Below are positions 5,232 through 35,891 of a stretch of 64,000 nucleotides of DNA, one piece after another. Source of the stretch: Rhodospirillaceae bacterium. Its GTDB lineage: Bacteria; Pseudomonadota; Alphaproteobacteria; UBA8366; Aestuariispiraceae. Both the position numbers and the translations under genes were made by a program. The notes beneath the pieces were generated by a model that was not told the DNA's origin, searched no databases, and saw nothing but the letters and a program-made list of their open reading frames with translations. Each line of letters opens with the position of its first letter. Within the stretch, counting starts at the first letter, position 1. Where the stretch lies: the NCBI GenBank assembly GCA_002709955.1, contig PAQY01000008.1, forward strand, positions 98,145-162,144, read 5' to 3'.

Positions 5232-6572
5232 ATGGCCAATTTGGCGCGTCGTCTTATCTGGGGGGCGTTTGTCGTGGTGTCTGTTGCATTATTTCACAGT
5301 AATGCGGGCGCACAGGTTCTGCCATCTCAGGGCGAGGGGGCTCATTTAGGGGCGCAGACTTGTGCGGGATCCACCTGTCATGGGGCGGTTCAACCGTGGC
5401 CAAACTCGTCTGTATTACAGAATGAGGCGGTTACCTGGGCCAATCATGATAAGCATTCTAAAGCCTATGCGGTTCTGGCCAGTGAGCGTGGCAAGCGCAT
5501 TGCGGACAATCTTGGGGTTGCAGATCCGCAAAAGGCAGGCCTCTGCCTTGACTGTCATGCGGATAATGTGCCCGAGCAGCGACGGTCTAAGAACTTCAAG
5601 ATCAGTGAAGGCGTGACATGTGAAGCGTGCCATGGCGGGGCGGAGCGTTGGTTGGGGGTTCATGTGTCAGGCATCGGTGGACATAAAGATAATCTTGCGG
5701 CTGGCATGTATCCCACCGAACAGCCAGTTGCGCGGGCAAAGCTGTGTCTGAGCTGTCATTACGGCAATTCGGATAAATTCGTCACCCATCGCATTATGGG
5801 GGCGGGTCACCCTCGTTTGAGCTTTGAATTAGACACCTATACGGCATCGCAACCAGCACATTTCCGGGTTGATGCGGATTATATTCAACGTAAAGGCCGG
5901 ACCAATGGTGTGAAAACCTGGGCGATTGGGCAAGCGGTTGCGGTTCAGGAAACATTGACCGCATTGACAGATAAAGAACGCAATAAGGATGGCATCTTTC
6001 CAGAGCTGGTCTTTTTTGATTGCCATGCCTGCCATCATCCGATGTCAAATTTGCGATGGCAACCCCGCGAAACTGTGGGGTTGGGCCCTGGTGTTCCGCG
6101 CTTGAATGATGGCAATTTGATCATGCTGCGCCTTGTGGCCGGGGTCATTGATCCTGCCCTTGGCGAGAGGATTGAAAGCCAAACACTGCAATTGCATCAG
6201 GCATCTGCTGATGGCCATGCGGCGACCCTGGCGGCAGCCAATACACTGAAAGAGACACTGCAGGGGATGATTAGCAAAGTCTCGAGCCATGACTTTATGG
6301 GTGATGAGATGGCAAAAATCCTGGATGTCTTAATCACAAATGGCCTGCAGGGAGATTATGCCGACTATATTGGGGCAGAGCAGGCCACATATGCCATCGC
6401 GACCATTGTGGCGGCGATGCAATCTGCGAACAAGCTAGACGGAGAGGCTTTGAAAGCCGTCAACGATGGGCTGGAGGCTGCGTATAAAGCCGTCGCAAAT
6501 GACGAGTCATATCGACCCCAGGAATACATGGATGCTTTGCGCGTTGTTCAGGTGGCGGTTCGCTCAAGATAA
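5232..6572 (+). CDS. periplasmic pentaheme cytochrome c (cytochrome c-554-like)
   Basis: About 446 residues. I chose the ATG at 5232, with AAGGGA five bases upstream; it gives a clean Sec signal peptide ending near NAGAQ. Five covalent haem motifs are visible: CAGSTCH (an unusual CX4CH), CLDCH, CEACH, CLSCH and CHACH, all in the first 270 residues. The C-terminal third is helical and haem-free. The pattern resembles the cytochrome c-554 / multihaem nitrogen-and-sulfur redox families. It should act in the periplasm as an electron carrier or oxidoreductase. It opens a three-gene right-going block with another pentaheme protein and an outer-membrane-like protein. No substrate can be assigned. 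Confidence 0.85.
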   Translation: MANLARRLIWGAFVVVSVALFHSNAGAQVLPSQGEGAHLGAQTCAGSTCHGAVQPWPNSSVLQNEAVTWANHDKHSKAYAVLASERGKRIADNLGVADPQKAGLCLDCHADNVPEQRRSKNFKISEGVTCEACHGGAERWLGVHVSGIGGHKDNLAAGMYPTEQPVARAKLCLSCHYGNSDKFVTHRIMGAGHPRLSFELDTYTASQPAHFRVDADYIQRKGRTNGVKTWAIGQAVAVQETLTALTDKERNKDGIFPELVFFDCHACHHPMSNLRWQPRETVGLGPGVPRLNDGNLIMLRLVAGVIDPALGERIESQTLQLHQASADGHAATLAAANTLKETLQGMISKVSSHDFMGDEMAKILDVLITNGLQGDYADYIGAEQATYAIATIVAAMQSANKLDGEALKAVNDGLEAAYKAVANDESYRPQEYMDALRVVQVAVRSR

Positions 6573-6659
6573 GCTCTGGTGCGGGTATTTTGAGAGTTGT
6601 CTTGGTGTAAACGTATTGAATTATAGGCACCCCGTCTGGCGGGGGGATTGGAAGAGTAT

Positions 6660-8573
6660 ATGAGTGATCTGGCACGCATTCGCGGACGGACCGCCTGTGT
6701 CTTTGTATTTGTTGTTGCTTTGATGGCGACAACTGTCTGTCATGCACAGCAGCACGCACCGCTTGCGTCTCAGGTGTTGCCAAACGTGGACTATTACACC
6801 TCCTTTGCCCCGCGGTCTTTGGACAGTGATGTATCCACTGACGGTACGGTGGGTGACGGTACGGCGGACTCTATTCAGGTTGCTGAAGCATCCAACAAGA
6901 ATGAAAGCGCCGGCAATGATGCGCATTTGGCCTTGTTGCGGACATCTGAATATCCTTCCGCTGTGACCTGCGGTCGGTGCCATCAGAGCATTTTTACGGA
7001 ATGGGCATCTTCCAATCATGCCTATGCTTCAATTTCCCCCATGTTTCATAAGTTCGAACAAGCCATCAATCAGCTTTCATCCGGCACAATGGGTACGTTC
7101 TGTGTGCGTTGTCACCAGCAGGTCGGGACACAGATCGGTGAACCGCGCGAACTGCCTTTGTGGGATCGCTCCCCCATCGCGCGCGAGGGGGTGACCTGCA
7201 TAACCTGTCACCGTGTAAACGCTGCCTTTGGTCGGGTGAATGGGGAACGTCATATCACGCCGGGCACGATTTACGAGCCGGTTTACAATACCGGAACCGC
7301 CCCCGGCTTGGATGAAGTTCTGGGGGACATTGATTACTATGGTGTTTCCGTTGATAAGGATCATGAAGGGACCCCGATCCACGTTGCCGCAAAGGTGTTT
7401 GAGACGGTTGGGGAATCCGAGTTTTGCGTTTCCTGTCACCAGGTCGCGGTCAATCTGGGCATCAAGCTTGAGGTCGTGTGGGAGCAGTATCGTGACAGCC
7501 CTGCCCATGCCAAAGGTATAACCTGCCAGGAATGCCATATGGGCAAAGTACCTGGTGAGGCGAAGGGTTATGATACCTGGCCCGTGGCCATTGTGAATGG
7601 GCGCGTGGTCGGGGATCCAAACCGCAAACATTCAAACCATGCCTTCTATGGTCCCGGTTATCCGATCGCGCATCCTGGTATCTTCCCATTCAATCCGCGC
7701 GGTCTGAAATGGTCCATCAAGGACTGGCTGACTTTTGACTACCGTGCCCCCTGGGGGGAGCCGGAATGGGAACAATCCCTGGCAGATGGATCTATTTCTG
7801 CCCCAGACTTCCCTCAGATATGGTCTGCGCGGGAGGATCGAGAGGAAGCACGCTTTATCATCGGACAGAATTTGGTCCTGCTGGAAAACAAGCGCATCGA
7901 TCGCCTGGCGGTGATGGAAAATGGCAGCCGGGTTGATGGGCCTTTCTTTGACGATGGTGCACCGAAGGTTGGGGAAAGTTTCTCCTTCCGCTATCGCCTG
8001 ACCAATACTGATGAAGGACATAATCTTCCGTCAGGGTCTTTGGGGGCACAGCCAGAAATCTGGATGAATGTCGCCTTGTTCGACCCGGATGGTGACCGGG
8101 TGTTCGAGTCCGGTTATGTCGATAAATATGGGGACATGGCGGACTTGCATTCCCTGGAGGTTGCCGCAGGTACGATTGAGCATGATGATCAATTATTTAA
8201 TCTGCAGACCAAGTTTCTGACCACGAATGTCAAGGGGACAGACCGGGAAATGTATCTTCCGGTGCAGTTTGATGTTGATCAATTACCCTTCCTGCGACCA
8301 TCCAATGTGCCAACGACTGTGCTGAACCATCCACCTTTCGTGCGAATGGAGGCGCGATCAATCCCACCACTTGGCTATCGTGATGTCGACTATACCGTTC
8401 CGGCGGATCGCATGACAAAGCCTGGAACCTATCGCTTGCAGGTGCGTTTACGCAGCCGTGCCGAACCGATCTATTTCATGAAATTTGTTGGTGCGACATT
8501 AGATATGGAACAGCGGATCAATGAGTGGATGATCGACATCCATCCCTATGCTGTTGAATTTGAGGTACAATAG
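6660..8573 (+). CDS. periplasmic pentaheme cytochrome c with large C-terminal domain
   Basis: About 637 residues from the ATG at 6660. An N-terminal signal peptide ends near TTVCHAQQ. An acidic, low-complexity linker lies about residues 50-90. Five CX2CH motifs follow: CGRCH, CVRCH, CITCH, CVSCH and CQECH, all before about residue 300. The remaining half has no haem and looks beta-rich, with an Ig-like feel (SFRYRLTNTDEGHNLPSGS). Some multihaem oxidoreductases have a similar build, but I do not recognise a named enzyme. The gene stops with a TAG one base before the next ATG, so it is tightly coupled to the outer-membrane protein gene. It is the likely catalytic or docking partner of the neighbouring pentaheme protein. 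Confidence 0.82.
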   Translation: MSDLARIRGRTACVFVFVVALMATTVCHAQQHAPLASQVLPNVDYYTSFAPRSLDSDVSTDGTVGDGTADSIQVAEASNKNESAGNDAHLALLRTSEYPSAVTCGRCHQSIFTEWASSNHAYASISPMFHKFEQAINQLSSGTMGTFCVRCHQQVGTQIGEPRELPLWDRSPIAREGVTCITCHRVNAAFGRVNGERHITPGTIYEPVYNTGTAPGLDEVLGDIDYYGVSVDKDHEGTPIHVAAKVFETVGESEFCVSCHQVAVNLGIKLEVVWEQYRDSPAHAKGITCQECHMGKVPGEAKGYDTWPVAIVNGRVVGDPNRKHSNHAFYGPGYPIAHPGIFPFNPRGLKWSIKDWLTFDYRAPWGEPEWEQSLADGSISAPDFPQIWSAREDREEARFIIGQNLVLLENKRIDRLAVMENGSRVDGPFFDDGAPKVGESFSFRYRLTNTDEGHNLPSGSLGAQPEIWMNVALFDPDGDRVFESGYVDKYGDMADLHSLEVAAGTIEHDDQLFNLQTKFLTTNVKGTDREMYLPVQFDVDQLPFLRPSNVPTTVLNHPPFVRMEARSIPPLGYRDVDYTVPADRMTKPGTYRLQVRLRSRAEPIYFMKFVGATLDMEQRINEWMIDIHPYAVEFEVQ

Positions 8574-8574
8574 T

Positions 8575-10164
8575 ATGATCCGCGCCATGATCCTCCTTCG
8601 AAGCTGCCTCGCCCCCGTCGGGTTTTTAATTTTGGTATGCGTCACTGTCCTGTCGGCCCAGGCCCAGGTGCTGCGACGGGAACCCCCACCAGACACAATG
8701 CAGGAGGAACGCTCCGGTAGTCCAGAATATGAAAGCCACCACGGGCCGCGAGAGATGGACCCCGCAGTGCGCCCGGCAGAGTTGGATGTGAAAGCATTTC
8801 GGAAGGATCCGGAATACACCGAACTTGAATATGACGCGCAGAAGCAGTTGGAAATCTATGGCGGAAAGACTGCGTTTGACGCCCCACGACCTGTCCTTGA
8901 ATTGGGATATCCGCAATATTCGGAAGGCATCTTTGGGTCAGGCCATGACATCATTGGGGAAAAAAACCTGGTGCGGCCGCAATTGCTGGCTTATGGCGAT
9001 TGGCGGACGGCTGTTGCATTTAATGACAATGGTGCCAATGAAACCGGCCTGATAGCAACGCGTCTGAATCTGGATATTGATCTGAAACTGACAGCCACCG
9101 AGAGGGTGCATATGTTTTTGCGTCCCTTGGATCAGGGCGGGCAATTCAGCCGCAATGAATTCTTTGGGAATGATCGAAATGGTCCCGATTTGACGGTAGA
9201 TGGCAATGTTGAAACGCTGTTCTTTGAAGGCGATATTGGGGCCATTCAAGCAGGCTTAACCAATGAATGGTCTTCCTATGACTTGCCCATCAGCTTTGGT
9301 TTGATGCCGCTTTTCTATCAAAACGGTATTTGGGTGGATGACGCCTTTACGGGGGCGGCCTTTGCTATCCCTGCCAAGAATTCGCCGATGCTGGATATCT
9401 CTAACATGGATTTCAGCTTCTTTGCTGGATTTGATAAGGTTACGACCGCAGCGCTAAAAGATGCTGATGGCACCCTGGCCGACCATGCCGGTCGTGTCTA
9501 TGGGGCCGCAACATTCATTGAGACCCGCAATGGCTATCTGGAAATGGGCTATGGTTTTGTCGACGATATCCGCACATCCCAGACACTCAGCGGCTTTGAT
9601 CACAGCAGTTTAACGGCGGCCTGGACCAAGCGCTATGGTCATATCCTGTCAAATTCAGTGCGTGGGTTTTGGAATTTCGGGCAAGATCCTGTAAATGATC
9701 TGCCACAAACAGCTGATGGTTTCGCTCTGCTGATGGAAAATTCCCTGATCACGTCCAAGCCTTTGACCTTCGTGCCCTATGGTAACTTTTTTCTGGGCGT
9801 TGATCGCCCGCAACCTCTGGCGCGGGGCAATGATGGACTGCTGAAGAATACCGGAATTTCCTTTGAAACCGATGCTTTGACCGGGTTTCCGAAACTCGAT
9901 TCCTCCGCACAAGACGCATTTGGTGGCGCAATTGGGATGGAGTATCTTTTTGATTTATCCCGTCAGGTCATTGTGGAGGCGGCAACGGTCCAGCCCTTCG
10001 GGGGGCGGTCTGATACAATCCTTGGGGATCAGTATGCCCTAAGTGCCCGCTATCAGCATAATCTGGATGATCGCTGGCTCGTACGCAGTGATATCATTCG
10101 GGGTTGGTTGGATAATAGCGAGGATCTATTTGGCATTCGTTTGGAATTGCGCCGCAAGTTCTGA
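8575..10164 (+). CDS. outer-membrane beta-barrel-like protein of the multihaem locus
   Basis: 529 residues from the ATG at 8575, one base after the upstream cytochrome stop. It has a signal peptide (hydrophobic APVGFLILVCVTVLSAQAQ). It is rich in alternating polar/hydrophobic stretches and glycine/aromatic turns. It ends in Phe (FGIRLELRRKF), the usual C-terminal signature of outer-membrane barrels. There is no haem motif. Its place beside multihaem cytochromes recalls porin-cytochrome conduits (MtrB/PioB type). It is shorter than those and I cannot match it to them. It might instead be a plain porin or an assembly factor. The barrel call rests on composition and C-terminus only. Confidence 0.6.
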   Translation: MIRAMILLRSCLAPVGFLILVCVTVLSAQAQVLRREPPPDTMQEERSGSPEYESHHGPREMDPAVRPAELDVKAFRKDPEYTELEYDAQKQLEIYGGKTAFDAPRPVLELGYPQYSEGIFGSGHDIIGEKNLVRPQLLAYGDWRTAVAFNDNGANETGLIATRLNLDIDLKLTATERVHMFLRPLDQGGQFSRNEFFGNDRNGPDLTVDGNVETLFFEGDIGAIQAGLTNEWSSYDLPISFGLMPLFYQNGIWVDDAFTGAAFAIPAKNSPMLDISNMDFSFFAGFDKVTTAALKDADGTLADHAGRVYGAATFIETRNGYLEMGYGFVDDIRTSQTLSGFDHSSLTAAWTKRYGHILSNSVRGFWNFGQDPVNDLPQTADGFALLMENSLITSKPLTFVPYGNFFLGVDRPQPLARGNDGLLKNTGISFETDALTGFPKLDSSAQDAFGGAIGMEYLFDLSRQVIVEAATVQPFGGRSDTILGDQYALSARYQHNLDDRWLVRSDIIRGWLDNSEDLFGIRLELRRKF

Positions 10165-10177
10165 TCCGCATTCCTTG

Positions 10178-10283
10178 GAGTATCATGCGTTCACATGCGC
10201 TCACACAGGATGCTCTTACCCCTTGTTTTTTCAGCAAATACGTCGTCGCACATGATTCCCCTTGCGACGGCTTGGCGCTAAGA
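10178..10283. repeat. dispersed palindromic repeat, copy A
   Basis: Intergenic stretch between two converging genes. It is closely similar, along about 105 bases, to 56586-56691. The two copies share a 25-base identical core (10226-10250 and 56634-56658), which includes CAGCAAATACGTCGTCGCA. This copy has lost the clear terminal inverted repeats seen in the other one. It is probably a non-coding, mobile-type intergenic repeat. Confidence 0.7.
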
Positions 10284-10327
10284 ACCAGCGAACCGACGGC
10301 ACACGCTATTTGGATTGCCTCTGCAAT

Positions 10328-12046
10328 CTATTGTGCCAAAAGCCCCATTGTTTCTCTCTTCTGATGCCCAAACATTTCATTATGGAAACTGTGACAGGAT
10401 GTGCAGGATGTACGAACTTTGCCTTGGGCAAATTCGCCACCATGGCATGTCTGACAGACGGCCACTGACGGCAGCAACACATCCGTCGCAAGCTCACTCT
10501 CAGGGGCTGCATGACACGTCACACAGGTTCTGTCCTTGTGGGCCAGATGCGTGAACTCGCCCTTTGGTAGCCAACGTGTTTGAACCTGTACCGGGGCAAT
10601 GATCCAATCAGTCTCTGAAAGTCCGGATTCGATCTGATGGCACGTACCACAGACCCCTTTGCCATAAGGCCCGGCTATAACAGCTTTCGCCTTGGCTTCT
10701 GCCCACGCCAACCCTTCCAACCGTTCCTGTTCTGTCATCGGCGTGCCAATGATGCGGCGAACGGGTGCAGGGGTGTCTGGGGCGGTGGTTGCAAACCCTC
10801 CCCGCAGGGCCAGGGCGGCGTAGGTGTCTTCGATATACTGTTTCGCTGCATCAACGGTGCTGTGGGGCATGGCCCTGTCCAGCGCATTAGGTTCAAATTG
10901 CAGGGAATGACAGGTTGCGCAGCTCGTCTCGAATTTCGCTGGCAACATGGCAACTCCGCCGGTTTCTGCCTGATGGCAGGTGGCGCATGTCATAACCGTG
11001 CGGGTGCCTGTTGGGTTTTTGAGTCCTGCCGGGTTCATATGCTTTTTATGGGTGAACTTCAGATTGGACGTGTCAACCGGTCCAGGCACGGCACCCAATG
11101 CGACACGATTCACAGGTGTCGTTGTTGGGGCTTCAAGACCTGTCGGGTGAAATTCAGGGTGTTCAGAAAAACCTGAGACGGCATTCAAATGGCTGTCAGG
11201 GGCGATTGTCTTTATTTCAGAATGACAGCTTACGCAAAACTGCTCGCTGGACAGGACCAGATTTGCATCACCGGTATGTTCTTTATGGCAGGTGGCGCAC
11301 GACTGATCGTCCAAGGCGGCGACAGGAAAGGCGACAGGATCTGCATGGGGCCCGGCATCTTCATGGCAGGTTACGCAGGTATTGCTGCTGACCTGTTGAA
11401 AGGCGTCGGTATGACAGGTTCCGCATTCATCGCCGAAATGTGCATGAACGCTGGACATTGGTCCAGGTTGCCAAATTTTATCGGCACGGGCCAGCAAGGA
11501 TCGGGTAATTGGTGTTTCGGCGCGCTGAAACTCCGAAACATCAGTCGGCTTATCGGTCGTGTAGAACGACAGAAGAGGGGCCCCCAATCCAATTGTCAAA
11601 GTCAGGATCAACATCAACCAAGCCCATCCACGAATGGATAGGCCAGTTCGATTTTGGGTGATGTTGGAGCGTGCAATCAGTTCATCTAAATCGTTTCCAA
11701 GCGGTCGGGCATAGTCAATGCTTAACGCGCCATCCGTGTCGTCTGGCGGGTCCAGTATGACCAGGTCATAGGGTCCCATATATATATGGTCACCTGGCTT
11801 TACCGTGGCCGCGGTGTTCAAAACACCATTGAGCTGAAATTCAACGCCGGAACTGGCTTCCAGATACAGACCAGCCGGACGGTGGGTGATGTTTAGATGG
11901 TGCAGCAATACACGGGGATCGGTCAGGTGAACTTCACATTCAGCCCCCCGTCCGAAATGCAGGATTGTTGCCTCAATGATTTCATCGCGCTGGGCATAGC
12001 CGCCGCTGCGCGTCTTTTTCATCATGTGCCGAACTAGGATTTTCAT
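10328..12046 (-). CDS. FHA-like domain / transmembrane / decaheme cytochrome c fusion
   Basis: 572 residues. Residues 1-100 look like a forkhead-associated (FHA) fold: HFGRGAECEVHLTDP, then LLHHLNI, LNG and PGDHIYMGPYDLVIL. The conserved Gly-Arg, His and Asn are there, but the Ser before His is Leu, so classic phosphothreonine binding is doubtful. One membrane helix follows at about 141-160 (WAWLMLILTLTIGLGAPLLS). Ten CX2CH motifs then lie between about 208 and 560: CGTCH, CVTCH, CATCH, CVSCH, CATCH, CATCH, CGTCH, CVTCH, CQTCH, CTSCH. The layout implies a cytoplasmic sensor or docking domain tied to a periplasmic ten-haem wire. It starts 24 bases after the diheme-b gene and closes the left-going three-gene arm. 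The fusion is unusual; I know no named protein of this build. Confidence 0.85.
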   Translation of the reverse strand: MKILVRHMMKKTRSGGYAQRDEIIEATILHFGRGAECEVHLTDPRVLLHHLNITHRPAGLYLEASSGVEFQLNGVLNTAATVKPGDHIYMGPYDLVILDPPDDTDGALSIDYARPLGNDLDELIARSNITQNRTGLSIRGWAWLMLILTLTIGLGAPLLSFYTTDKPTDVSEFQRAETPITRSLLARADKIWQPGPMSSVHAHFGDECGTCHTDAFQQVSSNTCVTCHEDAGPHADPVAFPVAALDDQSCATCHKEHTGDANLVLSSEQFCVSCHSEIKTIAPDSHLNAVSGFSEHPEFHPTGLEAPTTTPVNRVALGAVPGPVDTSNLKFTHKKHMNPAGLKNPTGTRTVMTCATCHQAETGGVAMLPAKFETSCATCHSLQFEPNALDRAMPHSTVDAAKQYIEDTYAALALRGGFATTAPDTPAPVRRIIGTPMTEQERLEGLAWAEAKAKAVIAGPYGKGVCGTCHQIESGLSETDWIIAPVQVQTRWLPKGEFTHLAHKDRTCVTCHAAPESELATDVLLPSVAVCQTCHGGEFAQGKVRTSCTSCHSFHNEMFGHQKRETMGLLAQ

Positions 12047-12070
12047 TTTACTGCGCCCCTTGAGCCGCCC

Positions 12071-12913
12071 TTACCAATAGAAAAAGACGGAGAACACATG
12101 GGCGACCAATGCCCCTAGCAGTCCAATTGCCATAGGAACGTGAAAAAATAGCCATATGCGCATCAGTGTTTGCACTTGAACATCGCGCCGGGCCCGCCTG
12201 AGCAAGTTTGATTTACGAATGATCAGCGCGATGATTTTCGTTATGTTGGGGTCCAGGGCCCCCATTTCTGCATAGTCGGATTCAAGCAGGCGACGTGCTT
12301 TAGTGGTGGCGCAGTTGGGATCTGTTCCTGACAGCTTGCGGAACAAAGTGCCACCGATCCGCGTTTCTTGGGCTGCCGTCAGCAAGGCCGTTGAAAGCTC
12401 CTGAGAAACCCCTGTGCTTGATTCTCTGATTTCCTGATCGGCTTCGGCAATCTGTGCCATCATATCGCGTAACGTCAGTCCCGACCGGTTGGCGGCCATC
12501 AAACTGGGATAGCGGGCATAGATGTAAATACCAAAAACGCCGCTGAGAACCGTCAGCAGCATCAGGATATAGGCAGCGCTGTGGATGTTCCAACCCAATT
12601 GAAATCCAGAATGCAGTGTCGCCAGTATGACCAGAGCCAGACCAAAATAAACATGGGCGGACAACCAGACTTTCAATCGTGAGGGACCCAGCGAGTATTG
12701 CCGTTTGCGAACACCAAACCAGGTGAGCCACAGCACCAGGCCAGCACATATTGTTCCCAATGTGTATCCCAGCCATGTGCCGCCATTTGGGGCTTCCAAA
12801 GGCTGGTGCCAGATATATGCGATAACGGCTATGATGACACACAGAGCGGCGAGCCGAAAATATTTCAGGCCACGATGAACCAGAAAGGATTCATGAATGA
12901 TGGGGGTGTTCAT
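12071..12913 (-). CDS. integral membrane diheme cytochrome b-like protein
   Basis: 280 residues from the ATG at 12913, which overlaps the stop of the upstream gene (ATGA), so the two are translationally coupled. It has about five membrane helices. Two of them carry the HX13H spacing typical of diheme b proteins: HVYFGLALVILATLH near residue 107 and HVPMAIGLLGALVAH near the C-terminus. This predicts two stacked b haems spanning the inner membrane. A soluble, charged segment lies between them (about residues 150-245). The expected job is to pass electrons between quinone or the cytoplasmic flavin/FeS partner and the periplasmic decaheme protein encoded next. The family is not one I can name. 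Confidence 0.75.
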   Translation of the reverse strand: MNTPIIHESFLVHRGLKYFRLAALCVIIAVIAYIWHQPLEAPNGGTWLGYTLGTICAGLVLWLTWFGVRKRQYSLGPSRLKVWLSAHVYFGLALVILATLHSGFQLGWNIHSAAYILMLLTVLSGVFGIYIYARYPSLMAANRSGLTLRDMMAQIAEADQEIRESSTGVSQELSTALLTAAQETRIGGTLFRKLSGTDPNCATTKARRLLESDYAEMGALDPNITKIIALIIRKSNLLRRARRDVQVQTLMRIWLFFHVPMAIGLLGALVAHVFSVFFYW

Positions 12914-15327
12914 CGGTCGAAGTCCCCTCTGTGATCCATGACAAAGTCTATGAAGGCACGGGGTTTGACGCGAATGGCAGCCCCAGTGGGACAGGCACGA
13001 ACACAGGCTGCGCCGCCTGAGATATCCTTGCACATATCACATTTCGTTGCCTTCTTGCGGGCATCCTTTGGGGCCTTGCCTCGTTGTGACTTGTCCTCGC
13101 CGGGCCCTGACCCGGCCCCAAATAACAGCCAGGTCAGAAGCCCCGGCTTGGCGGGCGGATCTGCTGCCATTTGTATGACGCCATAGGGGCAATTGCGTTC
13201 ACAATTGCCACATCCGATACAGTCATTGGTAATAAAAACCTCTCCCTCACGATCGCGTTTGATCGCATCGGGGGGGCAATCGGCCATGCAATGAGGATGT
13301 TCACAGTGGCGACAACTGGTTGGCACATGTACCTGGGCAAAGGTCGGTCCCGCCTCGCGATCCAATCGGGATATGCCGCCATGGGTTTCCGCGCAGGCGG
13401 TTTCGCAATTGTTGCACCCGATGCACAAGGCCTCATGAATCAACAAGATATCGGTTGCTTCACCGATACCCTGTCCCATCAGGAATTCAATGATGCTGCC
13501 TGCTTCAGGACGTTCCAGCATCCGCTGTGTATCGACGATGCGTTGGCCGTATTTCTCTTTAACCTCTGCCTGCAGAACCGGGTGCTCTGCCATCAACTTT
13601 TGAAAGGCAATGCCGTCTATGCGGATTGTTTCGCAATCAACAGCCGCTGTGACAGTTGCCGTTCGGGGCAATCCTGACATCAGCGCCATTTCGCCGACAT
13701 AATTTCCCGCAGCAATATAACTCAGCACAATATCCCGCCCGGCTATTCGCTTTGAAATCAGTACCGAGCCTTTCCGGATCAAGTGAATCGAATCGCCAAC
13801 ATCACCTTCGTTGAATAACACCTGCCCCTTTTTGAAGGTCTCCAGTGTGGCCGATGCGGCCAGTTCCTGAACAGCTTCCTTGCTCAAAGACGTCGCGATA
13901 TAGGCTTGAATCTGGCGCACGATGGCTTCCTGATCCATGACGCGGCGCAGGCTTTGCACGGAGGCACGCAATTTCAGCATCGTCCGGCGAGGCGTTTCTA
14001 TCAGGATCGTATTATCAGCATTCGACAAAATCGTCGCGGATCGTGGACGCCCTGCAATCAGACCCATTTCTCCAAAAAATGCACCTGCCTCCAGGATCAC
14101 GGATTTAGAAGGGTCGGTTTCACTTAGTTGAATCCGCACAGATCCTTGGAAGATTGTAAAAACACTGTTTGTGTAGTCGCCTTTCTTGAAAACGATCTGT
14201 CCTGATCGGGGTGCCGTGATCGCAGATTCAACAATCGTTTCCCGCAGCATCAGTGGGTTCAAATCGTGGAAGATTGGCAGACGTTCCCGCACTTCCGATA
14301 AGAAGCTGTCTGTGGTGTATCCATGAACTGCCTTTAGACGGGTCTTGATCAAGGGCTCGTCTGCGGGCTCCAGCGCGTTGCCCTTGATGTATTCAATCAC
14401 CTCATAGCCCTGGTTGATCGCCTGCTTGATCAAGGGATATCCACCCAAGGCGCCAATGATATACAATCCATCTACATTTGATTCATAGGACTTGCTGACC
14501 TCTGGCAGGGCGGTACGAGACTCAGAAGGAAAAACAACACCACAGGATTCTATGAATTTGCGGGGGGGTGAGGCACCCAGACGGGCGATCACGCGATGAC
14601 AGTTAATTTTGATGTCGCCGTCGGGGGTTTCAAAGGTAATCGTGCCCTGGCTGCATTCCTTCGAATTGGAATTATAGATTGGCAGGATTCGTCCACGACC
14701 GATCTCTGCCAGGATGGCGGCCTCATTGGCTTCTTTCGCACGGGAGAATTCGTCACCCCGATTTGCTATATAAACCGTGTTATGGGTGCACAGGCCCAAC
14801 GCATTCTCAATAGCGGCATCCCCGGCCCCGATAACAACGATGGTTTCATGCTCATACTCGTTTGGGTCATCCAATTGGTATTGCAGATGGGTGGATGCCT
14901 GGGCCCCTGGGATTTGGAGCGTGTTTAGATTTCCTTGCAACCCGATTGCCAACACAACCGTTTCAGCAGCAATCACCTCGCCTGATATCAGGGTCAGTTC
15001 AAAGGCCCCGCGTGACCCGGTGATTGATTTTACTTCTGCATTGTACCTGATGTTGACGTTGTTGGTGACAAGCGCACTGTTCCAATTGGCCAAGACATCT
15101 TCCCGGCTTCCCATGGCAAACGGAATGTCTGACCGCAACGGCAATACGTCAGGCGTTGCCATGACATATTTTCCCTTTTGGAACTTATAGATAGTGTCAG
15201 ATGCATGATCCGACTTCTCTAGTAAAACATGGGAAAGTCCTATCGCCGCAGCATGGCATCCTGCACTCAACCCTGCAGGCCCCGAGCCGACAATTGCGAC
15301 CTCTACCTTGGCCGCTGTTTTTATCAA
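12910..15327 (-). CDS. FAD/NAD(P) oxidoreductase with two cNMP-binding domains and four 4Fe-4S motifs
   Basis: 805 residues, TTG start at 15327 behind a G-rich ribosome site. Residues 1-330 form a two-dinucleotide-fold flavin reductase (VGSGPAGLSAG for FAD, VVIGAGDAAIENAL for NAD(P)). It lacks the CXXC of thioredoxin reductases, so it is closer to ferredoxin-NADP reductase or YpdA types. Two cyclic-nucleotide-binding domains follow, about 350-465 and 475-595. Each has an intact phosphate-binding cassette (FFGEMGLIAGRPRSATI and YVGEMALMSGLPRTATV). The C-terminal 190 residues carry four ferredoxin cysteine groups (CIGCNNCETAC, CRHCEHPHCMADC, CIGCGNCERNC, CDMC...CVRAC). It is probably cytoplasmic and feeds or drains the membrane diheme b protein, with cAMP or cGMP as a control input. 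Confidence 0.85.
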   Translation of the reverse strand: MIKTAAKVEVAIVGSGPAGLSAGCHAAAIGLSHVLLEKSDHASDTIYKFQKGKYVMATPDVLPLRSDIPFAMGSREDVLANWNSALVTNNVNIRYNAEVKSITGSRGAFELTLISGEVIAAETVVLAIGLQGNLNTLQIPGAQASTHLQYQLDDPNEYEHETIVVIGAGDAAIENALGLCTHNTVYIANRGDEFSRAKEANEAAILAEIGRGRILPIYNSNSKECSQGTITFETPDGDIKINCHRVIARLGASPPRKFIESCGVVFPSESRTALPEVSKSYESNVDGLYIIGALGGYPLIKQAINQGYEVIEYIKGNALEPADEPLIKTRLKAVHGYTTDSFLSEVRERLPIFHDLNPLMLRETIVESAITAPRSGQIVFKKGDYTNSVFTIFQGSVRIQLSETDPSKSVILEAGAFFGEMGLIAGRPRSATILSNADNTILIETPRRTMLKLRASVQSLRRVMDQEAIVRQIQAYIATSLSKEAVQELAASATLETFKKGQVLFNEGDVGDSIHLIRKGSVLISKRIAGRDIVLSYIAAGNYVGEMALMSGLPRTATVTAAVDCETIRIDGIAFQKLMAEHPVLQAEVKEKYGQRIVDTQRMLERPEAGSIIEFLMGQGIGEATDILLIHEALCIGCNNCETACAETHGGISRLDREAGPTFAQVHVPTSCRHCEHPHCMADCPPDAIKRDREGEVFITNDCIGCGNCERNCPYGVIQMAADPPAKPGLLTWLLFGAGSGPGEDKSQRGKAPKDARKKATKCDMCKDISGGAACVRACPTGAAIRVKPRAFIDFVMDHRGDFDR

Positions 15328-24348: not shown

Positions 24349-25260
24349 TTATAAAGTTTCATTGGCTTTAGCGCGGCGTGCATGAACAGAAACGAATTCC
24401 ATCTCGTCTAGGATTGAAGCGTGCAGGCAGTTTGTGCCATTCCCCAAAGATCTGTACATGGCGTATCTCAGTAATTTTAGCGTATCGCCTGTTCGTCCCT
24501 TGGTCCTAGATTGGATACTTTCCGTGATTCGTTTCGTTTTGAAGCTCTTGTCCATATCGAAACCAGATGAAGTTACATAAGTTTGTATAAATTTCCCATA
24601 ATGCTCCCCGGGTTGCCAAATCGGTACCCGAACCGGTTCAAACCGGCTCCCGAATTGTTGGTCAGTTTGGAAGGCTGATTCTGCCTGCCGCGTTCCGATC
24701 ACGACAATCGGGATTTGGAGTGAGTTCGTGAGGAATTTTAGGCCATTCAGAAAGATCGTTCGTTGGTCGCGGCTACCAGGAAGAATGTTATGAATTTCGT
24801 CGACGAAGATCATGCGCACCCCAATCGCTGGAAACAGATTCAGTATCTGCGTTTCCGCTCTCTGTCGGCTTAAAGTCTCTGGTACAGCCGCATTCACGGC
24901 ACGCAACAATCCTCCGTAGAACTCTCCCAGGAACGGCCCTGGCGGTGTTTCAACAAACACGACGGGATGCTTCGTATCAGTCTCATCTGCGCTTCGCTGA
25001 GGTGTGTGTCGGTGTTGAAATTCCCGCGCGATTGACGTTTTCCCTGTGTTGGTCTCACCAACGATCATTGCGCATGGAGGGCGGATCGACTTGGGCTGGT
25101 CGAATATGTTCTCTAGCAATGCCAATATTTTCGATGCGGCCGCATATTCGATCCACCGATCCCTACGGATTGCATCTCGTTGCTCTGCTGAGATTATCGA
25201 GGGACGGTTCTTATTAACGCCCTCCGATGCAACTTCTTCTACTTTGATCAATCGTGCCAC
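24349..25260 (-). CDS. tnsC: TnsC/TniB-like AAA ATPase of a Tn7-like transposon
   Basis: 303 residues. Walker A GETNTGKTS near residue 68 and Walker B MIFVDEIHNILPG near 150 are intact, followed by a sensor region (PIVVIGTRQAESAF). In the family it is the ATP-dependent regulator that links the target-selection protein (TniQ/TnsD) to the TnsAB transposase and gives target immunity. Its start overlaps the tnsB stop, so it is translationally coupled. The length is nearer to TniB than to Tn7 TnsC (about 555). Confidence 0.88.
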   Translation of the reverse strand: MARLIKVEEVASEGVNKNRPSIISAEQRDAIRRDRWIEYAAASKILALLENIFDQPKSIRPPCAMIVGETNTGKTSIAREFQHRHTPQRSADETDTKHPVVFVETPPGPFLGEFYGGLLRAVNAAVPETLSRQRAETQILNLFPAIGVRMIFVDEIHNILPGSRDQRTIFLNGLKFLTNSLQIPIVVIGTRQAESAFQTDQQFGSRFEPVRVPIWQPGEHYGKFIQTYVTSSGFDMDKSFKTKRITESIQSRTKGRTGDTLKLLRYAMYRSLGNGTNCLHASILDEMEFVSVHARRAKANETL

Positions 25261-27176
25261 CCTGCGTTCAGATCTTCTTCAGAAAACTCATAATACTCCT
25301 CCTCATTCTGTTGATCGGAATGAGGAGCATCGTTATCAACCACTATCTGTAAATTTAGCGGCGGTTTGTCGTCGACTTTCTGTTCACTGCGCAAAGTACT
25401 GTGGCCTGCGCGTGTGCTTGTGTTTTCTCGATGGAGTTTGGCTTGCTTCCGACGCTGGTTAGTCCTCCGAGCCTTTTTGGTTTCGGTCTTTGCGCTTTTC
25501 ACAACCGCTCCCATTTCTTCGATCGTCCTGAAAATAAGGGCTTCGTTTACTTTTTCCGCACCCTGACGTTTCAATTCCTTGATCGCTTCCTTGAGTTCCC
25601 AAACTGTGATCGTTGGATGACCTATGTCGAGAAAGGGAACGGGGATGTAATCCTGCTTTTGGGGATCCAGGAAATAGATCGTGCTGATGTCGAGAGGATC
25701 CCGCCGCACTTTGAATTTCGGCGTCAGGCCGTTGACTTTGTACCCGATCCAGCAACGGATTTCGTCGCTATAGTATCGGACATGATTCATGGTGATGCCC
25801 TGGCGTTGAACGGTGCATTCTTTGAAGGGAAGAAAGTCGATGCGAAGTCTTTCAGGGTCTTGGTGTTTCGGGGGGATGCCGATGCCTTTGAGATTCTTGC
25901 CATCACCAAGGAGGCCTCGTTCCCACATTGCCCGGGGAGACATATTTAGCTGAGAATGGATGCGCTCATGGTAGACGCCGGTTATCCAGAGCAACAGCCA
26001 GCGCTGTGCCTCTTTAAAGGTCATCGCTGAATTTTTGTCGGAGTCGTAGCCATCCCGATCGCGGGTGTTCGAGAAGGTCGTTCCTGGGAGCGCGTGGAAC
26101 TCCTTGGCTATTGTTCCGAACAGCCGTTCAATTCGGCCTCCCCAGTTTGGTGTTTTTACCGGCCTCCATTCAATCGATATCCCATGTTCGATACATGCTT
26201 CCGACACAGATTTGCATCGAAAATCCTTACCATTGTCCGCATGAAGCGTTGCCATCCTTCCCCAAACATCCCAGTGATTGGCTACATTCAAGTCAGCCAG
26301 TGCCTGATCCTTCGGCAGGATAGCGTTCTGAACGCACATGCCGACCGATTGGGCACTAGGTGCTTCGAGTGACAAATAGTAACCGACCACCATCCGGCTA
26401 AAGACATCGATTGCGAGCGTTAACCAGGGACGTCCGATAGGCTTGCGAGAAATGTCATCTACAAGAATCAGATCGAGATAATGGTGATCGATCTGAACAA
26501 CGGACAACGGATGAGAGGCGCCGGGGAAATCTCCCGCCGCCGGATCGAAGCGGTCGCGTGCGGCCTTTTTGCCACGGCGGGCTTGAGTTGCTTCCTTCGG
26601 GGAGATTTTGGCTATCCTGCGCCGAACCGTTTTATGGTCAGGTGCATTGAGTCCGGCAGCCCGGCATCTTATTTCGACTGCTTCGATAACCTTCTTCGGG
26701 GATTTTTTCTGTGTATGGAGATACTCGACCTCAATGGCGGTGCGGATGATTGCCTCAACATCATCCGAAAGGCGTCGGGCTCTCGTTTGACCATGTTGAG
26801 GGGCGAGAGCGGCACGGCTCTCGAAAGTATTATAACGTTCGAGCCAACGATAGATCGTTCTTACAGATTTGCCAGACTGTTTGGCAATTTTCTGTATTTC
26901 CCCTCGGGGTAGTGTTCTGTTGGTTAGCGATCTAATGATTTCAAACCGCTGCTCCATTGCAGCGATTTTCTTTGGTGAAAGTGCATCGGGATGGGGTAGT
27001 GATCGTCTGGATTCTGCTTTCGGTTCCTCAAGATCCGACACGCGCACTATCTTGGTTTCACCCGTATCTTTGAGTTGGACCATCACCTCAGCAACGCCAG
27101 CCACGCGCAGGAGCTCGCACCGCTGACCGCAATAGGTCGCCTTCGTTCCAGGCGTGAATGATTTCAGCGCGCTCAT
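25248..27176 (-). CDS. tnsB: TnsB/TniA-like DDE transposase
   Basis: 642 residues. N-terminal helix-turn-helix region (LPRGEIQKIAKQSGKSVRTI) binds the ends. The RNase-H-fold core carries a full DDE triad: Asp in SVVQIDHHYLDL, Asp in TLHADNGKDF, Glu in GGRIERLFGTI. A Mu-type C-terminal barrel and a long basic, then acidic tail follow (from about 545), which probably contacts TnsC. It cuts and joins the transposon 3' ends. The start overlaps tnsA by four bases (ATGA). Confidence 0.9.
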   Translation of the reverse strand: MSALKSFTPGTKATYCGQRCELLRVAGVAEVMVQLKDTGETKIVRVSDLEEPKAESRRSLPHPDALSPKKIAAMEQRFEIIRSLTNRTLPRGEIQKIAKQSGKSVRTIYRWLERYNTFESRAALAPQHGQTRARRLSDDVEAIIRTAIEVEYLHTQKKSPKKVIEAVEIRCRAAGLNAPDHKTVRRRIAKISPKEATQARRGKKAARDRFDPAAGDFPGASHPLSVVQIDHHYLDLILVDDISRKPIGRPWLTLAIDVFSRMVVGYYLSLEAPSAQSVGMCVQNAILPKDQALADLNVANHWDVWGRMATLHADNGKDFRCKSVSEACIEHGISIEWRPVKTPNWGGRIERLFGTIAKEFHALPGTTFSNTRDRDGYDSDKNSAMTFKEAQRWLLLWITGVYHERIHSQLNMSPRAMWERGLLGDGKNLKGIGIPPKHQDPERLRIDFLPFKECTVQRQGITMNHVRYYSDEIRCWIGYKVNGLTPKFKVRRDPLDISTIYFLDPQKQDYIPVPFLDIGHPTITVWELKEAIKELKRQGAEKVNEALIFRTIEEMGAVVKSAKTETKKARRTNQRRKQAKLHRENTSTRAGHSTLRSEQKVDDKPPLNLQIVVDNDAPHSDQQNEEEYYEFSEEDLNAGWHD

Positions 27177-27820
27177 GTCACAAAGCCCGATAGTTCTATG
27201 ACGGACTCCATCGTAAGCTCCTTGTCGAAATCAGCAGTGAGGATGCCAGTTGCCAATAGGCACCAAATTGTATGAAGCGTTGCACCTTTCAATGCGAGTG
27301 CCGATCCATTACACTCGGCCAACCGCTCGACAGAAATCCCGCATCGGACTTCGGTAAGCTTTCTCCGTAAGGCTGTTGCTATAGAGGAATCGAGTGATTG
27401 GGTTCTGAACGGCAGCAGGAATTTTGCGTTCTCAAGACGTGGTCCGCGAATTTCATCTTCGGTCCAAATCGAAAACTCCCAGTCGCGGTCGTTAGCAAAT
27501 CGGCGCGCCGCCTCAAATCGCTCTTCATAGTGATCTGCATCAGACTTAAGTATATCTGCGGGTTTGACTTCAACCAGCATTGTAGGCCGTTCGCGTCGAT
27601 GCACTAGGAAGTCCGGGATATAGTAACCTGCTCGACCTCGTTTCCCTGGAACAGGTACTTCAACCGGTTGCTCTTCGATGGATATGAAATCGGCGTCGAA
27701 CATCATCAATGATATGAAATCGCGCTCCAAAGAAGACTCGAAGGCAACCCCTTGTCCGCCCGAGCCAGCATGTATGCCAGAGAGGCTTTTCTGTTTGGGA
27801 GGGATTTTCCTGACTGGCAT
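27173..27820 (-). CDS. tnsA: TnsA endonuclease
   Basis: 215 residues. Restriction-like endonuclease fold with catalytic residues visible: Glu in FESSLERDF, Asp in YYIPDFLVHRR, and Glu-X-Lys in TMLVEVKPAD. In Tn7-like elements it cuts the 5' strands so that the element is cut and pasted, not copied. The C-terminal part binds TnsC. It starts four bases after tniQ ends and overlaps tnsB. All known key residues are present, so it should be active. Confidence 0.9.
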   Translation of the reverse strand: MPVRKIPPKQKSLSGIHAGSGGQGVAFESSLERDFISLMMFDADFISIEEQPVEVPVPGKRGRAGYYIPDFLVHRRERPTMLVEVKPADILKSDADHYEERFEAARRFANDRDWEFSIWTEDEIRGPRLENAKFLLPFRTQSLDSSIATALRRKLTEVRCGISVERLAECNGSALALKGATLHTIWCLLATGILTADFDKELTMESVIELSGFVT

Positions 27821-27823
27821 CGT

Positions 27824-29152
27824 TCAGTCCGCTTTTTTGAACAATCTTCTCGCACTAGATGTATCGATTCGCTCTGTGTCACGAGAAAGAGTTTCGATGA
27901 TTGCTTTTTCGACCCATGCAGAAACCTTCTCCCCTTCCCGTTTAGCAGCCTGTTTCGCTAGTGCCCTCGCTGATGGAGATATACCGTCCAGCTTCCAGTA
28001 TCGGCTCTGACCGTAAGGAATATGTTCGTGCGCCGGCTCAGCGATCTTTGAGAGAGATCGAGGCCTGCGTCCGGAAAGGATTCTGATCTGGCGTTGCGTA
28101 GGAACGATCCCTCGCTTGGCGAGGTGATGTTTCACTTCTTCCAGGTGAAGTTTGTTGGATTTGGGCGGATTGCCGTATGGCAGGTTATCTATCGGATCGA
28201 CCAAGGCGAACGGCTCGTTGCGTCGATCTTTGAAGAGATGTCGGCTTCGAATACCAAGGGCCTCACACGCGGTAACGAAACGAGTGGGCCATTCCTCGAT
28301 GAGAGTGGATGCCATTTGTAGGAGCGCAAATCGGCTGCGTGGGTTTAGTTTATCCACTTCCCTAAGCGCAGGTATCGCGCGACCCTGCAGGTTCAGGGAG
28401 TAAGTATTGCAAACATAATCCCGAAGGGGATATGCGTGCATACCCGCTGTCAGAATTCTGAAAATACGCCACATCACTAGAAAGAACAGCAACGGATGAA
28501 TCCTGCCGAAATGTCCCATGACAATCCAGCCGCCTGCCAAAGCGGCTAATATTTGCGGCTCCAGAGAGTTTCGATCCTTGAGATCATTGGGAGTTGGGGG
28601 TGTCTTGCGCAAATCGAAGGTGCAATTCCAGCATGCAGAAATTGGCTTTCCAGACCCGGTGAGATTGCCCGGATAAATCACGCTCGCGCAGTTTGGACAG
28701 CGATCAATCAACAAGCATTCGTGTTCCGTACAGGTCGGGAGGCACGATACTCTCCATATTGATCTCAAATATGGAGTTTCATCTTCGGCCAAACAAACCG
28801 GGCATGCTTGCTGTCCGAAGGATTGAATCCTTTGCCGGTTTCCTATCGCAGGCAACCACGGCAATAGCATGCGGCCGTCATCTTCTCCGATTAATGTGCC
28901 ATGCCAGCTGTGAAACGTCATTGCTTCCAGCTTTTCGATCGGAACTAGAGTTCCTTCCTGAAGACCGGAAAGCAGATGAGGTGACCAATGCCTGTCGAGA
29001 TCTGCAAAGTACATATGGCCGCCAGGCAGGGCAGCACGGTACAGTTCTTCTAGCGTTACGCAGTTCGCCTGTGAAACGCGCGTGAACCAAGATAAAAAAG
29101 ATTCGCCTGGCAATGGCGCGGGGCGTCGTGGCCAGGGGCCAATATTATGCAT
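27824..29152 (-). CDS. tniQ: TniQ/TnsD-like target-selection protein
   Basis: 442 residues. N-terminal TniQ domain (PAPLPGESFLSWFTRVSQAN) with zinc-ligand pairs CPVC, CPNC and CWNC plus HEC near 110-180. A longer C-terminal part follows, which in TnsD proteins reads a fixed DNA site. It ends with a basic region. Because the transposon right end lies just beyond a tRNA-Ser 3' end, this protein probably recognises that tRNA gene. This is inference; tRNA-directed TniQ/TnsD proteins are known for other Tn7-like elements. It is the first gene of the operon, unlike Tn7, where TnsD comes last. Confidence 0.85.
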   Translation of the reverse strand: MHNIGPWPRRPAPLPGESFLSWFTRVSQANCVTLEELYRAALPGGHMYFADLDRHWSPHLLSGLQEGTLVPIEKLEAMTFHSWHGTLIGEDDGRMLLPWLPAIGNRQRIQSFGQQACPVCLAEDETPYLRSIWRVSCLPTCTEHECLLIDRCPNCASVIYPGNLTGSGKPISACWNCTFDLRKTPPTPNDLKDRNSLEPQILAALAGGWIVMGHFGRIHPLLFFLVMWRIFRILTAGMHAYPLRDYVCNTYSLNLQGRAIPALREVDKLNPRSRFALLQMASTLIEEWPTRFVTACEALGIRSRHLFKDRRNEPFALVDPIDNLPYGNPPKSNKLHLEEVKHHLAKRGIVPTQRQIRILSGRRPRSLSKIAEPAHEHIPYGQSRYWKLDGISPSARALAKQAAKREGEKVSAWVEKAIIETLSRDTERIDTSSARRLFKKAD

Positions 29153-33907: not shown

Positions 33908-34007
33908 AAAATCAAACCTGTGATCTGAGTGATTCAGACGTTCTTCACGCCAATGCTATAACCCTAACCACTGGCTCAGATTGCCACAATTCATTTTAGC
34001 ACCCAGT

Positions 34008-35033
34008 TTACCCCATTGCCCGGATCAACTCCATCTGTCGTTCTGTCGTAACCGGAAGATATGAATTGATCGTGGTGGCCACATTCTCATGCCCCAAATT
34101 CATCGACCATGCCTTGAAGGCTTCAGGACTCTCGCAAATCTCATTCCCGAAATGGGTCAGCGTCTTGCGAAAGGCATGAGGCGTATATTGGGGCATCTGG
34201 ACGTTGGCAAAGGCGGTGCGGATGATCGCGTTCAGCTTGGCGGCGTTGGCAAACCCTTCTCGCGCCAAACCCAGATTGGCAAACCCCTGCCCCTCAACCA
34301 GCCCGACCTTGGCTTTTGGAAACAAGGCGTCCTCTTGCCCAAACAGTTTGACCTCGACCAGATAGGCGACCCAATCGGTAAAACATGTGCGATAGGCGGC
34401 ATCAACGGGGAAGAACTGGCAATGAATCGTTTTCCCGGCCTTGGTGTTCACTTCACGCGCGTCCTGGAAGACATGGCCCAGTTCAATATTCACATGTTTC
34501 AGCTTGAGGGATGCCACAGCGCCATCCCGTGCCCCCGTCAGCATAAAGAACGCAAACAGCGCCTTGTCGCGTTTCTGGAACTCGGTCTCAAACGGCATTG
34601 CCTGAAACGCATGGGCGGCTTGCTGCATCGACGGATACGGGATTTGGCGCTGGGTATGCGCCACACGCCCCGCCTTGCGGGTGTTGTTGAAATACTCCAC
34701 ATCGGCATAGCTAAGTACCCGTTTGAACCCCGGACGGCTGACCAACCAGTGAAAGAAGTTCTTAACCAAGCGCAAGGTGGCGTCGACGGTCGAGAAGCCC
34801 AAAGGCTTGCCTGTTTTGATGTTTCGCTGCTTGGCTAGAAAATCCTTGAAGTCCGCTGCCTGTTGCCGATGAAACTTTTTGAACGGTTTGAACTTGGTGC
34901 TTTCCTCAAAGCGCCGAATTGCTGCCCGTGCTTTATCAATCGAGGTGTCGTCCTGCCCTTTTGCATGGTGCAAATAGGTGGCGTAGTCGTGCTTGATCCG
35001 CTCGTTCTCTTCAACATATCGGGTCATCGTCAT
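34008..35033 (-). CDS. tyrosine recombinase / phage-type integrase
   Basis: 341 residues. N-terminal SAM-like core-binding domain to about 120. Catalytic residues visible: Arg in LTGARDGAVASL, His-X-X-Arg in TPHAFRKTLTHF, His in LGHENVATTINSY and the Tyr nucleophile in that last motif. It can cut and rejoin DNA at a short site. It is the second recombinase of the island and lies next to two HTH proteins. It may be the integrase of an older element within the island. Confidence 0.88.
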   Translation of the reverse strand: MTMTRYVEENERIKHDYATYLHHAKGQDDTSIDKARAAIRRFEESTKFKPFKKFHRQQAADFKDFLAKQRNIKTGKPLGFSTVDATLRLVKNFFHWLVSRPGFKRVLSYADVEYFNNTRKAGRVAHTQRQIPYPSMQQAAHAFQAMPFETEFQKRDKALFAFFMLTGARDGAVASLKLKHVNIELGHVFQDAREVNTKAGKTIHCQFFPVDAAYRTCFTDWVAYLVEVKLFGQEDALFPKAKVGLVEGQGFANLGLAREGFANAAKLNAIIRTAFANVQMPQYTPHAFRKTLTHFGNEICESPEAFKAWSMNLGHENVATTINSYLPVTTERQMELIRAMG

Positions 35034-35143
35034 TCATCCTTGTGTCGCTGGTTTTGGCCCATTTTTCTGCCCATCAACTCCACTATGTTTGGCGAACAGC
35101 TGGAAGTGATGATTCACGCTAGGTTTGACAGGTTCCTTTAAGG

Positions 35144-35775: not shown

Positions 35776-35865
35776 TCTTCAATCCCTATCATTCGGTTGT
35801 GATAACCTTGAATACGAGGGAATTTAGGCAGAGGCAGTCTAGAAACTGAGAAGGTTCGACATGAT

Positions 35866-35880: not shown

Positions 35881-35891
35881 TTTTAGGCGAA

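Follow-up and report, generated by a model that had tools for sequence, protein, structure and literature searches.

Six genes at positions 5232-15327 of a 64,000-nucleotide stretch of DNA from a Rhodospirillaceae bacterium (the window) encode a set of redox proteins that could carry electrons from the cytoplasm to the outer membrane. They lie in two convergent arms, and all six genes reported in an initial annotation of the stretch are present. We call their products P1 (P0001), P2 (P0002), the barrel (P0003), the decaheme (P0004), the b protein (P0005) and the flavoprotein (P0006). Left-arm genes are closely packed, with gaps of 87 and 1 bases, as had been noted; the overlap also ascribed to them belongs to the right arm, where P0005 and P0006 share 4 bases and 24 bases separate P0005 from P0004. 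Scans for promoters (14, against 10.3 in shuffles) and terminators (10, against 11.4) both stayed within two standard deviations. Pfam and NCBIfam domain matches were judged against curated family cut-offs. Lengths below are in amino acids (aa), and cNMP denotes a cyclic nucleotide.

5232-15327: six-gene locus in two convergent arms (window open reading frames)
5232-10164, + strand: left arm (P1, P2, barrel)
5232..6572, + strand: P1, periplasmic multihaem c cytochrome, 446 aa, 4 CXXCH and 1 CX4CH, cytochrome c554-like N-terminal part (PF13435, 40.2 bits, cut-off 20.8)
6660..8573, + strand: P2, pentaheme cytochrome with C-terminal immunoglobulin (Ig)-like domain, 637 aa, Thermochromatium tepidum c552/ExtKL type
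8193..8345, + strand: P2 residues 512-562, its best conserved segment (mean identity 0.87)
8575..10164, + strand: barrel P0003, predicted 18-strand outer-membrane beta-barrel, 529 aa, OprD/AlgE-like fold by structure model, C-terminal Phe
9808..9915, + strand: barrel residues 412-447, long loop between strands 13 and 14, the barrel's best conserved part (0.79)
15327-10328, - strand: right arm, in gene order P0006, P0005, P0004
10328..12046, - strand: decaheme c cytochrome P0004, 572 aa, ten CXXCH (Cytochrome_C7, 49.1 bits)
11756..11965, - strand: FHA-like domain of the decaheme (residues 28-97)
12071..12913, - strand: diheme b inner-membrane protein P0005, 280 aa, two WX3HX13H and SGXXG
12910..15327, - strand: P0006, cytoplasmic FAD/NAD(P) (YpdA-like) protein with two cNMP-binding domains and four [4Fe-4S], 805 aa, probable TTG start
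14407..15303, - strand: FAD/NAD(P) domain of P0006 (residues 9-307; PF13738, 104.5 bits)
12958..13437, - strand: four [4Fe-4S] cysteine sets of P0006 (residues 631-790), read from the translation; Fer4-type domains

The locus encodes 20 c-haem sites, the number first counted: 4 CXXCH motifs in P1, 5 in P2 and 10 in P0004, plus one CX4CH in P1. Across 2000 shuffles of each of these proteins, no shuffled sequence held more than one CXXCH. Cytochrome_C7 matches at E <= 0.01 fall at just three places in the whole genome, namely P1, P2 and P0004. The unusual CX4CH site recurs in 38 of 42 relatives of P1 (the 'penta1' group), and P1 shares only 30% identity over 153 columns with the tetraheme of the other cluster type described below.

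P2 is a member of the pentaheme family of T. tepidum c552 and ExtKL, with five CXXCH motifs and a C-terminal Ig-like domain in the c552 fold. All five motifs are kept in each of 80 relatives. Both domains of its structure model (predicted local distance difference test score, pLDDT, 74.4) align with T. tepidum c552 (5ze8; Foldseek E 3.7e-10; structural alignment Z 18.3, 4.2 Å over 360 residues at 17% identity), and the two proteins match by sequence at E 4e-4. The ExtKL model NF040886 scores 36.1 bits on P2, below its cut-off of 250, and across the genome it yields only two weak matches, both within P2.

The product of the third gene is modelled as a beta-barrel of about 18 strands (pLDDT 85.1) and has no Pfam or NCBIfam match at E <= 0.1. 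Its structural matches are Campylobacter MOMP, OprD-family porins and AlgE, with MOMP the best by Foldseek (E 8.1e-10) and OpdQ the best by VIA-align (Z 27.4, 2.8 Å over 319 residues). Strand parity would place its conserved loop, residues 412-447, outside the cell. Residues 512-562 of P2 are left unfolded when that protein is modelled alone (pLDDT 36-41 over the block 521-560) and are a candidate partner-binding segment. The two segments may meet, since each is the best conserved part of its protein, the one left unfolded and the other a putative outward loop.

Right-arm proteins would link the cytoplasm to the periplasm. The decaheme begins with an FHA-like cytoplasmic N-terminus, followed by a single hydrophobic helix (136-154) and then the ten haem motifs. 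Its FHA match reaches 20.2 bits, just under the Pfam cut-off of 20.7. By eye, GR is kept in 19 of 21 relatives and the serine of SRxH, which we take to be the canonical FHA motif, in 0 of 21. P0005 carries WX3HX13H at residues 83 and 254 with SGVFG between them; at least two HX13H arose in 243 of 20,000 shuffles of the protein. Among 53 b proteins of related loci, all but one, a 217-aa frame, have the paired WX3HX13H, and 47 have SGXXG between the two motifs, which bears out the diheme b protein first proposed. P0005 shares its two HX13H haem-binding helices with the membrane domain of ferric reductases and NADPH oxidases (NOX; PF01794).

P0006 was correctly described as a cytoplasmic NAD(P)H/FAD/FeS protein: its FAD/NAD(P), cNMP-binding and 4Fe-4S domains all exceed Pfam cut-offs, including PF13247 (35.0 bits, cut-off 26.2). 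The initial domain inventory lacked both of these cNMP-binding domains as well as the FHA-like start of the decaheme. Both cNMP-binding domains keep, by eye, a plausible phosphate-binding motif in what we take to be its usual form, so nucleotide control of P0006 is possible. Under a strict pattern, 11 of 20 relatives of the window's type keep both motifs, 6 keep one and 3 none. A thiol-disulfide reductase (YpdA/TrxR-like) was also considered and rejected: inspection of the FAD domain by eye shows no CXXC, and the score from the YpdA model, 131 bits, misses the cut-off of 339.9.

Conservation of the two arms

Relatives of the terminal pentaheme occur in probably hundreds of species. A P2 alignment, used to scan one genome per species for 84,980 species, found at least 545 related stretches at E <= 1e-3. 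We compared gene sets around the best 80 of these, 33 of which extend 8 kb or more to either side of P2 (the flanked loci). The loci are not independent, as L072 and L077 share one genome and several metagenome-assembled genomes are near-copies. Organism names are those of the deposited records and some are doubtful; L035, titled Mesoflavibacter, scores exactly like L022 from the window's genus.

The six genes form one system whose arms are found together across genomes, either convergent or as one operon. Of 43 genomes from the window's order, three encode a full-length P0006 relative: that of the window itself and two congeneric ones (77-78% identity). In both congeneric relatives the six genes are all present and convergent as in the window; one of the two has an additional 553-aa frame separating its arms. 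Presence is patchy, and three further genomes of the genus have no full-length P0006 relative. Other families encode a single operon of a tetraheme, a cNMP-binding/Fe-S protein lacking the FAD domain, the b protein, the decaheme, P2, the barrel and an FAD-NAD-[2Fe-2S] reductase.

Two doubts raised with the initial annotation, that the arms might never occur together elsewhere and that the barrel might be unrelated to cytochromes, did not hold. In 77 of 80 loci the barrel gene is on the same strand as P2 and no more than 143 bases away; the remaining three loci are short or cut (3346, 11064 and 7206 bases). In the flanked loci the barrel is present in 33 of 33, P1 or the tetraheme in 31, and the decaheme with the b protein in 27. 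A cNMP-binding/Fe-S protein accompanies them in 22 of 33, fused to the FAD domain in 12 and unfused with a separate reductase in 10.

Where the right arm is missing nearby, it often lies elsewhere in the genome. We searched nine whole genomes for P0006: those of the six loci without a right arm nearby, of L079 and of two loci of the Hyphomicrobium type. Full-length relatives (51-59% identity) were found in five and the unfused type in two; the two Hyphomicrobium-type genomes gave only weak matches. Four of the six loci without a nearby right arm have the full-length relative elsewhere in the genome. The remote gene has the b protein and decaheme alongside in L130, L131 and L133, and the b protein alone at the end of the short contig L123. 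In L132 neither stands beside it, and both sit with P2 in L079 instead.

That two unrelated operons became neighbours by chance is extremely improbable and already contradicted by these co-occurrence data. The convergent arms, unlinked in some genomes, would suit such an accident. Against it stand the single operon of many genomes and the presence of both arms in every genome followed up, with a reservation for L077 and L084 (discussed below).

No constant eighth partner emerged when flanking genes of 87 loci were clustered; the commonest other gene-like family, read as an acetolactate-synthase-like enzyme, occurs in 10 of 87. P2 had no match at E <= 1e-10 in 72,556 plasmid records. Genes of the molybdenum-hydroxylase type (xanthine/CO dehydrogenase-like, by reading) lie near P2 in L057, L058, L061, L077, L084 and L093.

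Three forms of the cluster

The cluster takes three forms that differ mainly in how a flavoprotein is supplied. Type A, the window's form, has FAD fused to the cNMP-binding and Fe-S domains, an FHA-like decaheme and P1 with its CX4CH site. Type B is unfused, and its FAD-NAD-[2Fe-2S] reductase has a hydrophobic N-terminus by eye; in L034 this reductase carries an FHA domain (60.8 bits), and the L033 counterpart is similar in length. Type C, found in Hyphomicrobium and kin, has no cNMP-binding/Fe-S protein and places a [2Fe-2S]-FAD-NAD protein beside the tetraheme. We checked two of the FAD-NAD-[2Fe-2S] proteins and one [2Fe-2S]-FAD-NAD protein against Pfam.

One of the three kinds of NAD(P)H-type flavoprotein is encoded within 26 of the 33 flanked loci (12 P0006 fusions, 10 type B and 4 type C). 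Of the remaining seven, five have the fusion elsewhere in the genome, and L077 and L084 have a flavoprotein elsewhere, in units that may serve another P2. The fusion and the separate reductase never share a locus among the 33.

The left arm's terminal cytochrome tracks the type of the right arm, because the P2 tree splits by type with 100/99 support. One group holds 24 rows (19 A, 5 unassigned) and the other 34 (20 B, 6 labelled C, 7 unassigned and 1 A, the hybrid L079). Types were labelled from profile scores, or by reading the loci for L049, L058, L059, L077, L079 and L084, and the label C on L074 and L099 reflects only that their loci are cut off. The true C clade comprises eight rows (L086, L105, L107-L110, L112 and L113). 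The genome of L077 also encodes a second, strongly diverged pentaheme of 677 aa, with five CXXCH, and a barrel of 507 aa (L137:880-4616 and L135). They adjoin another type B arm and could represent an additional branch of the family. In G444, the whole frame of a second P2-like protein contains five CXXCH.

A proposed electron path and its alternatives

We favor, at a probability of about 0.55, a trans-envelope electron-export chain that is a homologue of PCC4, a putative porin-cytochrome cluster named by He et al. in 2017 (PMC5566968), with its own NAD(P)H entry module. This keeps, as the best reading, the path from flavoprotein to outer membrane first suggested for the locus. NAD(P)H would reduce the FAD of P0006, whose binding domain is present, and electrons would pass through its four [4Fe-4S] clusters, whose motifs are likewise present, to the diheme b protein. 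P0005, which bears the haem signature, would carry them across the inner membrane to the membrane-tethered decaheme, then probably to P1 and on to P2 at the 18-strand barrel. There they would reduce either a surface acceptor or one admitted by the barrel. Flow would thus be outward, and the cytoplasmic cNMP-binding and FHA-like domains probably gate it.

The kind of inner partner bears on the direction of flow. Three flavoprotein kinds replace one another while the rest of the set is kept, and this strongest hint points to NAD(P)H rather than quinone. NAD(P)H at the inner end changes the expected direction relative to the quinone-linked model of 2017, in which electrons are taken up from outside, for example by Fe(II) oxidation, and enter the quinone pool through the b protein (PMC5566968). 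That model was proposed for homologous clusters in genomes of iron oxidizers and from water filters, and the b protein signature is the same here as in PCC4. Uptake is nonetheless improbable for the present cluster: NAD(P)H-type flavoproteins stand in 26 of 33 loci and elsewhere in the genome in the rest, and quinone-linked uptake has no need of them. Some carriers, moreover, are titled Solimonas and Nevskia, genera of aerobic heterotrophs.

Moving electrons from NAD(P)H through b haems to the periplasm with no pump would consume energy instead of storing it, and an assimilatory or protective reductase would therefore fit better than respiration. Possible roles are reductive iron handling, oxyanion handling and export to a solid; the periplasmic nitrogen or sulfur reaction first suggested as another role is conceivable. 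A periplasmic or outer-membrane reductase for a specific small oxidant, such as an oxyanion or metal chelate, is a tentative alternative. The OprD-like barrel would be an uptake channel and P2 the reductase or a docking cytochrome, so that only the substrate crosses the outer membrane, as proposed for ExtI with ExtKL of Geobacter. The barrel's best matches (substrate-specific OprD/Occ porins, MOMP and AlgE) and the ExtKL/c552 type of P2 argue for it. So does the Geobacter extHIJKLMNOPQS cluster, in which loss of ExtI impairs reduction of selenite and tellurite but not of Fe(III) citrate (PMC5877670). No recurrent substrate gene lies nearby, however, and P2 is only a distant ExtKL relative (36 bits against 250).

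Several observations weigh against the export chain. The P2-barrel pairs L077 and L084 have no arm clearly their own. Besides a complete unit (L072), the L077 genome contains one more arm (L135), which stands next to the diverged pentaheme and barrel, and that of L084 holds an arm, L136, that resembles L135 and ends near a contig end; for both pairs, the arm may be one that also serves another unit. Among 398 genomes sampled evenly across the phylum, P2 occurred in three, the barrel in three and both in two: G322 has a P2-like protein with no barrel match, and G174 has a barrel, at a contig end, with no P2. Mantel correlations between the arms (r 0.59-0.95, 45 loci) do not separate co-transfer from species relatedness. 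No recurring flanking gene among 87 loci names a substrate, and no lipobox is visible by eye in P1 or P2. All matches of the b proteins to PF01794 and PF01292 fall below cut-offs; the best to PF01794 is 20.2 bits against 28, in 1 of 8 relatives, and the family is not listed for P0005. Nor is an 18-strand barrel likely to be wide enough to enclose a decahaem in the way MtrB encloses MtrA. With a barrel of OprD/AlgE-like rather than MtrB type, export beyond the outer membrane is a possibility and not an established step.

A more far-reaching version of the export chain, which we regard as doubtful, makes it an envelope-spanning, signal-gated bacterial counterpart of NADPH oxidase and ferric reductase. 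Second messengers bound to the cNMP domains would switch a current that is driven by NAD(P)H and runs through the 20 c-haems to a site at the surface, formed by P2 residues 512-562 docked on the barrel's conserved extracellular loop, in aerobic proteobacteria not thought to be electroactive. Two questions become accessible to experiment: what would lead aerobic bacteria of sea and soil to direct reducing power from the cytoplasm to the outer membrane, and whether this flow is under second-messenger control.

Elsewhere in the window are several unrelated features. A Tn7-like transposition set (24349-29152, - strand) encodes a TniB-type ATPase, a Mu-type transposase, a TnsA-like endonuclease and TniQ, each with a Pfam match. 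Type III restriction-modification genes, among them a restriction gene split over two frames, together with a pair of integrase-like genes next to tRNA-Ser (29730-38165, by reading), are likely a genomic island. Tungstate-type ABC transporter genes (45260-47633, - strand, by reading) lie close to a molybdopterin oxidoreductase gene (50145-53024, by Pfam). WD40 repeats run across two successive frames (55057-56532, + strand), the second ending in a cytochrome c domain (second frame by Pfam); a frameshift is possible, and the frames adjoin a formate-dehydrogenase-like gene set.

Comparison with known systems

The cluster resembles MtrAB, MtoAB and PioAB in general idea only, as a barrel with multihaem cytochromes. 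Its 18-strand barrel is OprD/AlgE-like, and its cytochromes score far below the DmsE/MtrC family cut-offs; both oppose kinship with MtrCAB. The MtrB/PioB model TIGR03509 matched neither P0003 nor anything in its genome, and a control also gave no match anywhere.

Among the systems met, the Geobacter ext cluster is the nearest with mutant data. It shares a non-MtrB porin (ExtI) and a pentaheme (ExtKL) of P2's fold family (PMC5877670, PMC11976967), and it also has 4-, 10- and 12-haem cytochromes and a cytochrome b (PMC5877670). Unlike the window's cluster, Ext has a bc-type cytochrome b, a Rieske protein, a rhodanese and a selenoprotein, and an NAD(P)H flavoprotein is not among the Ext components listed (PMC5877670). 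The c552 of T. tepidum aligns with P2 in both its domains but is shorter, with 435 residues in the entry against 637 aa. According to a study of cable bacteria, this c552 has been assigned no clear role; the study connects pentahemes resembling c552 with ExtKL and points out their similarity to a cytochrome filament of archaea (PMC11976967).

PCC4 is the closest known relative. Judged by its encoded proteins, the window's cluster is homologous to PCC4 and not a nameless pathway, so the initial statement that no named pathway with this set was known is not supported. As described by He et al. (PMC5566968), PCC4 comprises a porin, periplasmic cytochromes with 4, 5 and 10 haems, an inner-membrane protein and other redox proteins. 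Subgroup I is Hyphomicrobium; Subgroup II spans Zeta-, Gamma- and Alphaproteobacteria and Planctomycetes and includes a PF13247 Fe-S gene. Two WX3HX13H with SGXXG are the signature of the inner-membrane protein of PCC3 and PCC4 (PMC5566968). The window has the porin, three multihaem cytochromes with 4, 5 and 10 CXXCH, and both elements of that signature in P0005. As in Subgroup II, a PF13247 Fe-S domain is encoded next to, and upstream of, the inner-membrane protein, in the window fused to the flavoprotein. The Hyphomicrobium locus L110, of Subgroup I by content, shares 61% identity with the window in P2 and 46% in the barrel. In another family of the window's order, frames with 15 and 22 CXXCH adjoin a b-type protein near an FAD protein (L032:5117-9032), possibly a PCC3-like cluster.

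Differences from PCC4 concentrate in the entry module. The window's flavoprotein, YpdA-like, forms a single protein with two cNMP-binding domains and an Fe-S domain, whereas PCC4 has a separate FNR-type protein. PCC4's further redox gene upstream of the tetraheme has no counterpart among the frames of the window's locus, which has the YpdA-like FAD/NAD(P) domain of P0006 instead; we took the FAD-NAD-[2Fe-2S] protein as its counterpart in type B and C loci. The window's decaheme has an FHA-like domain, its P1 is longer with the extra CX4CH site, and its arms are convergent.

Full-text searches, with subscription papers and preprints outside their reach, found no experiment on PCC4 since the 2017 prediction; a 2026 paper mentions it once. 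A library-based study reports 440 multihaem cytochrome clusters new to its library and unnamed in its text (PMC11475568); these may include the present gene set. Type A, with its fusion, is absent from the main-text sections on PCC4 of He et al. (PMC5566968) and was not found in the literature covered by the same searches, supplements also lying outside them. By content, type C corresponds to PCC4 Subgroup I and type B to Subgroup II, and the fused type A would be a third form beside them.

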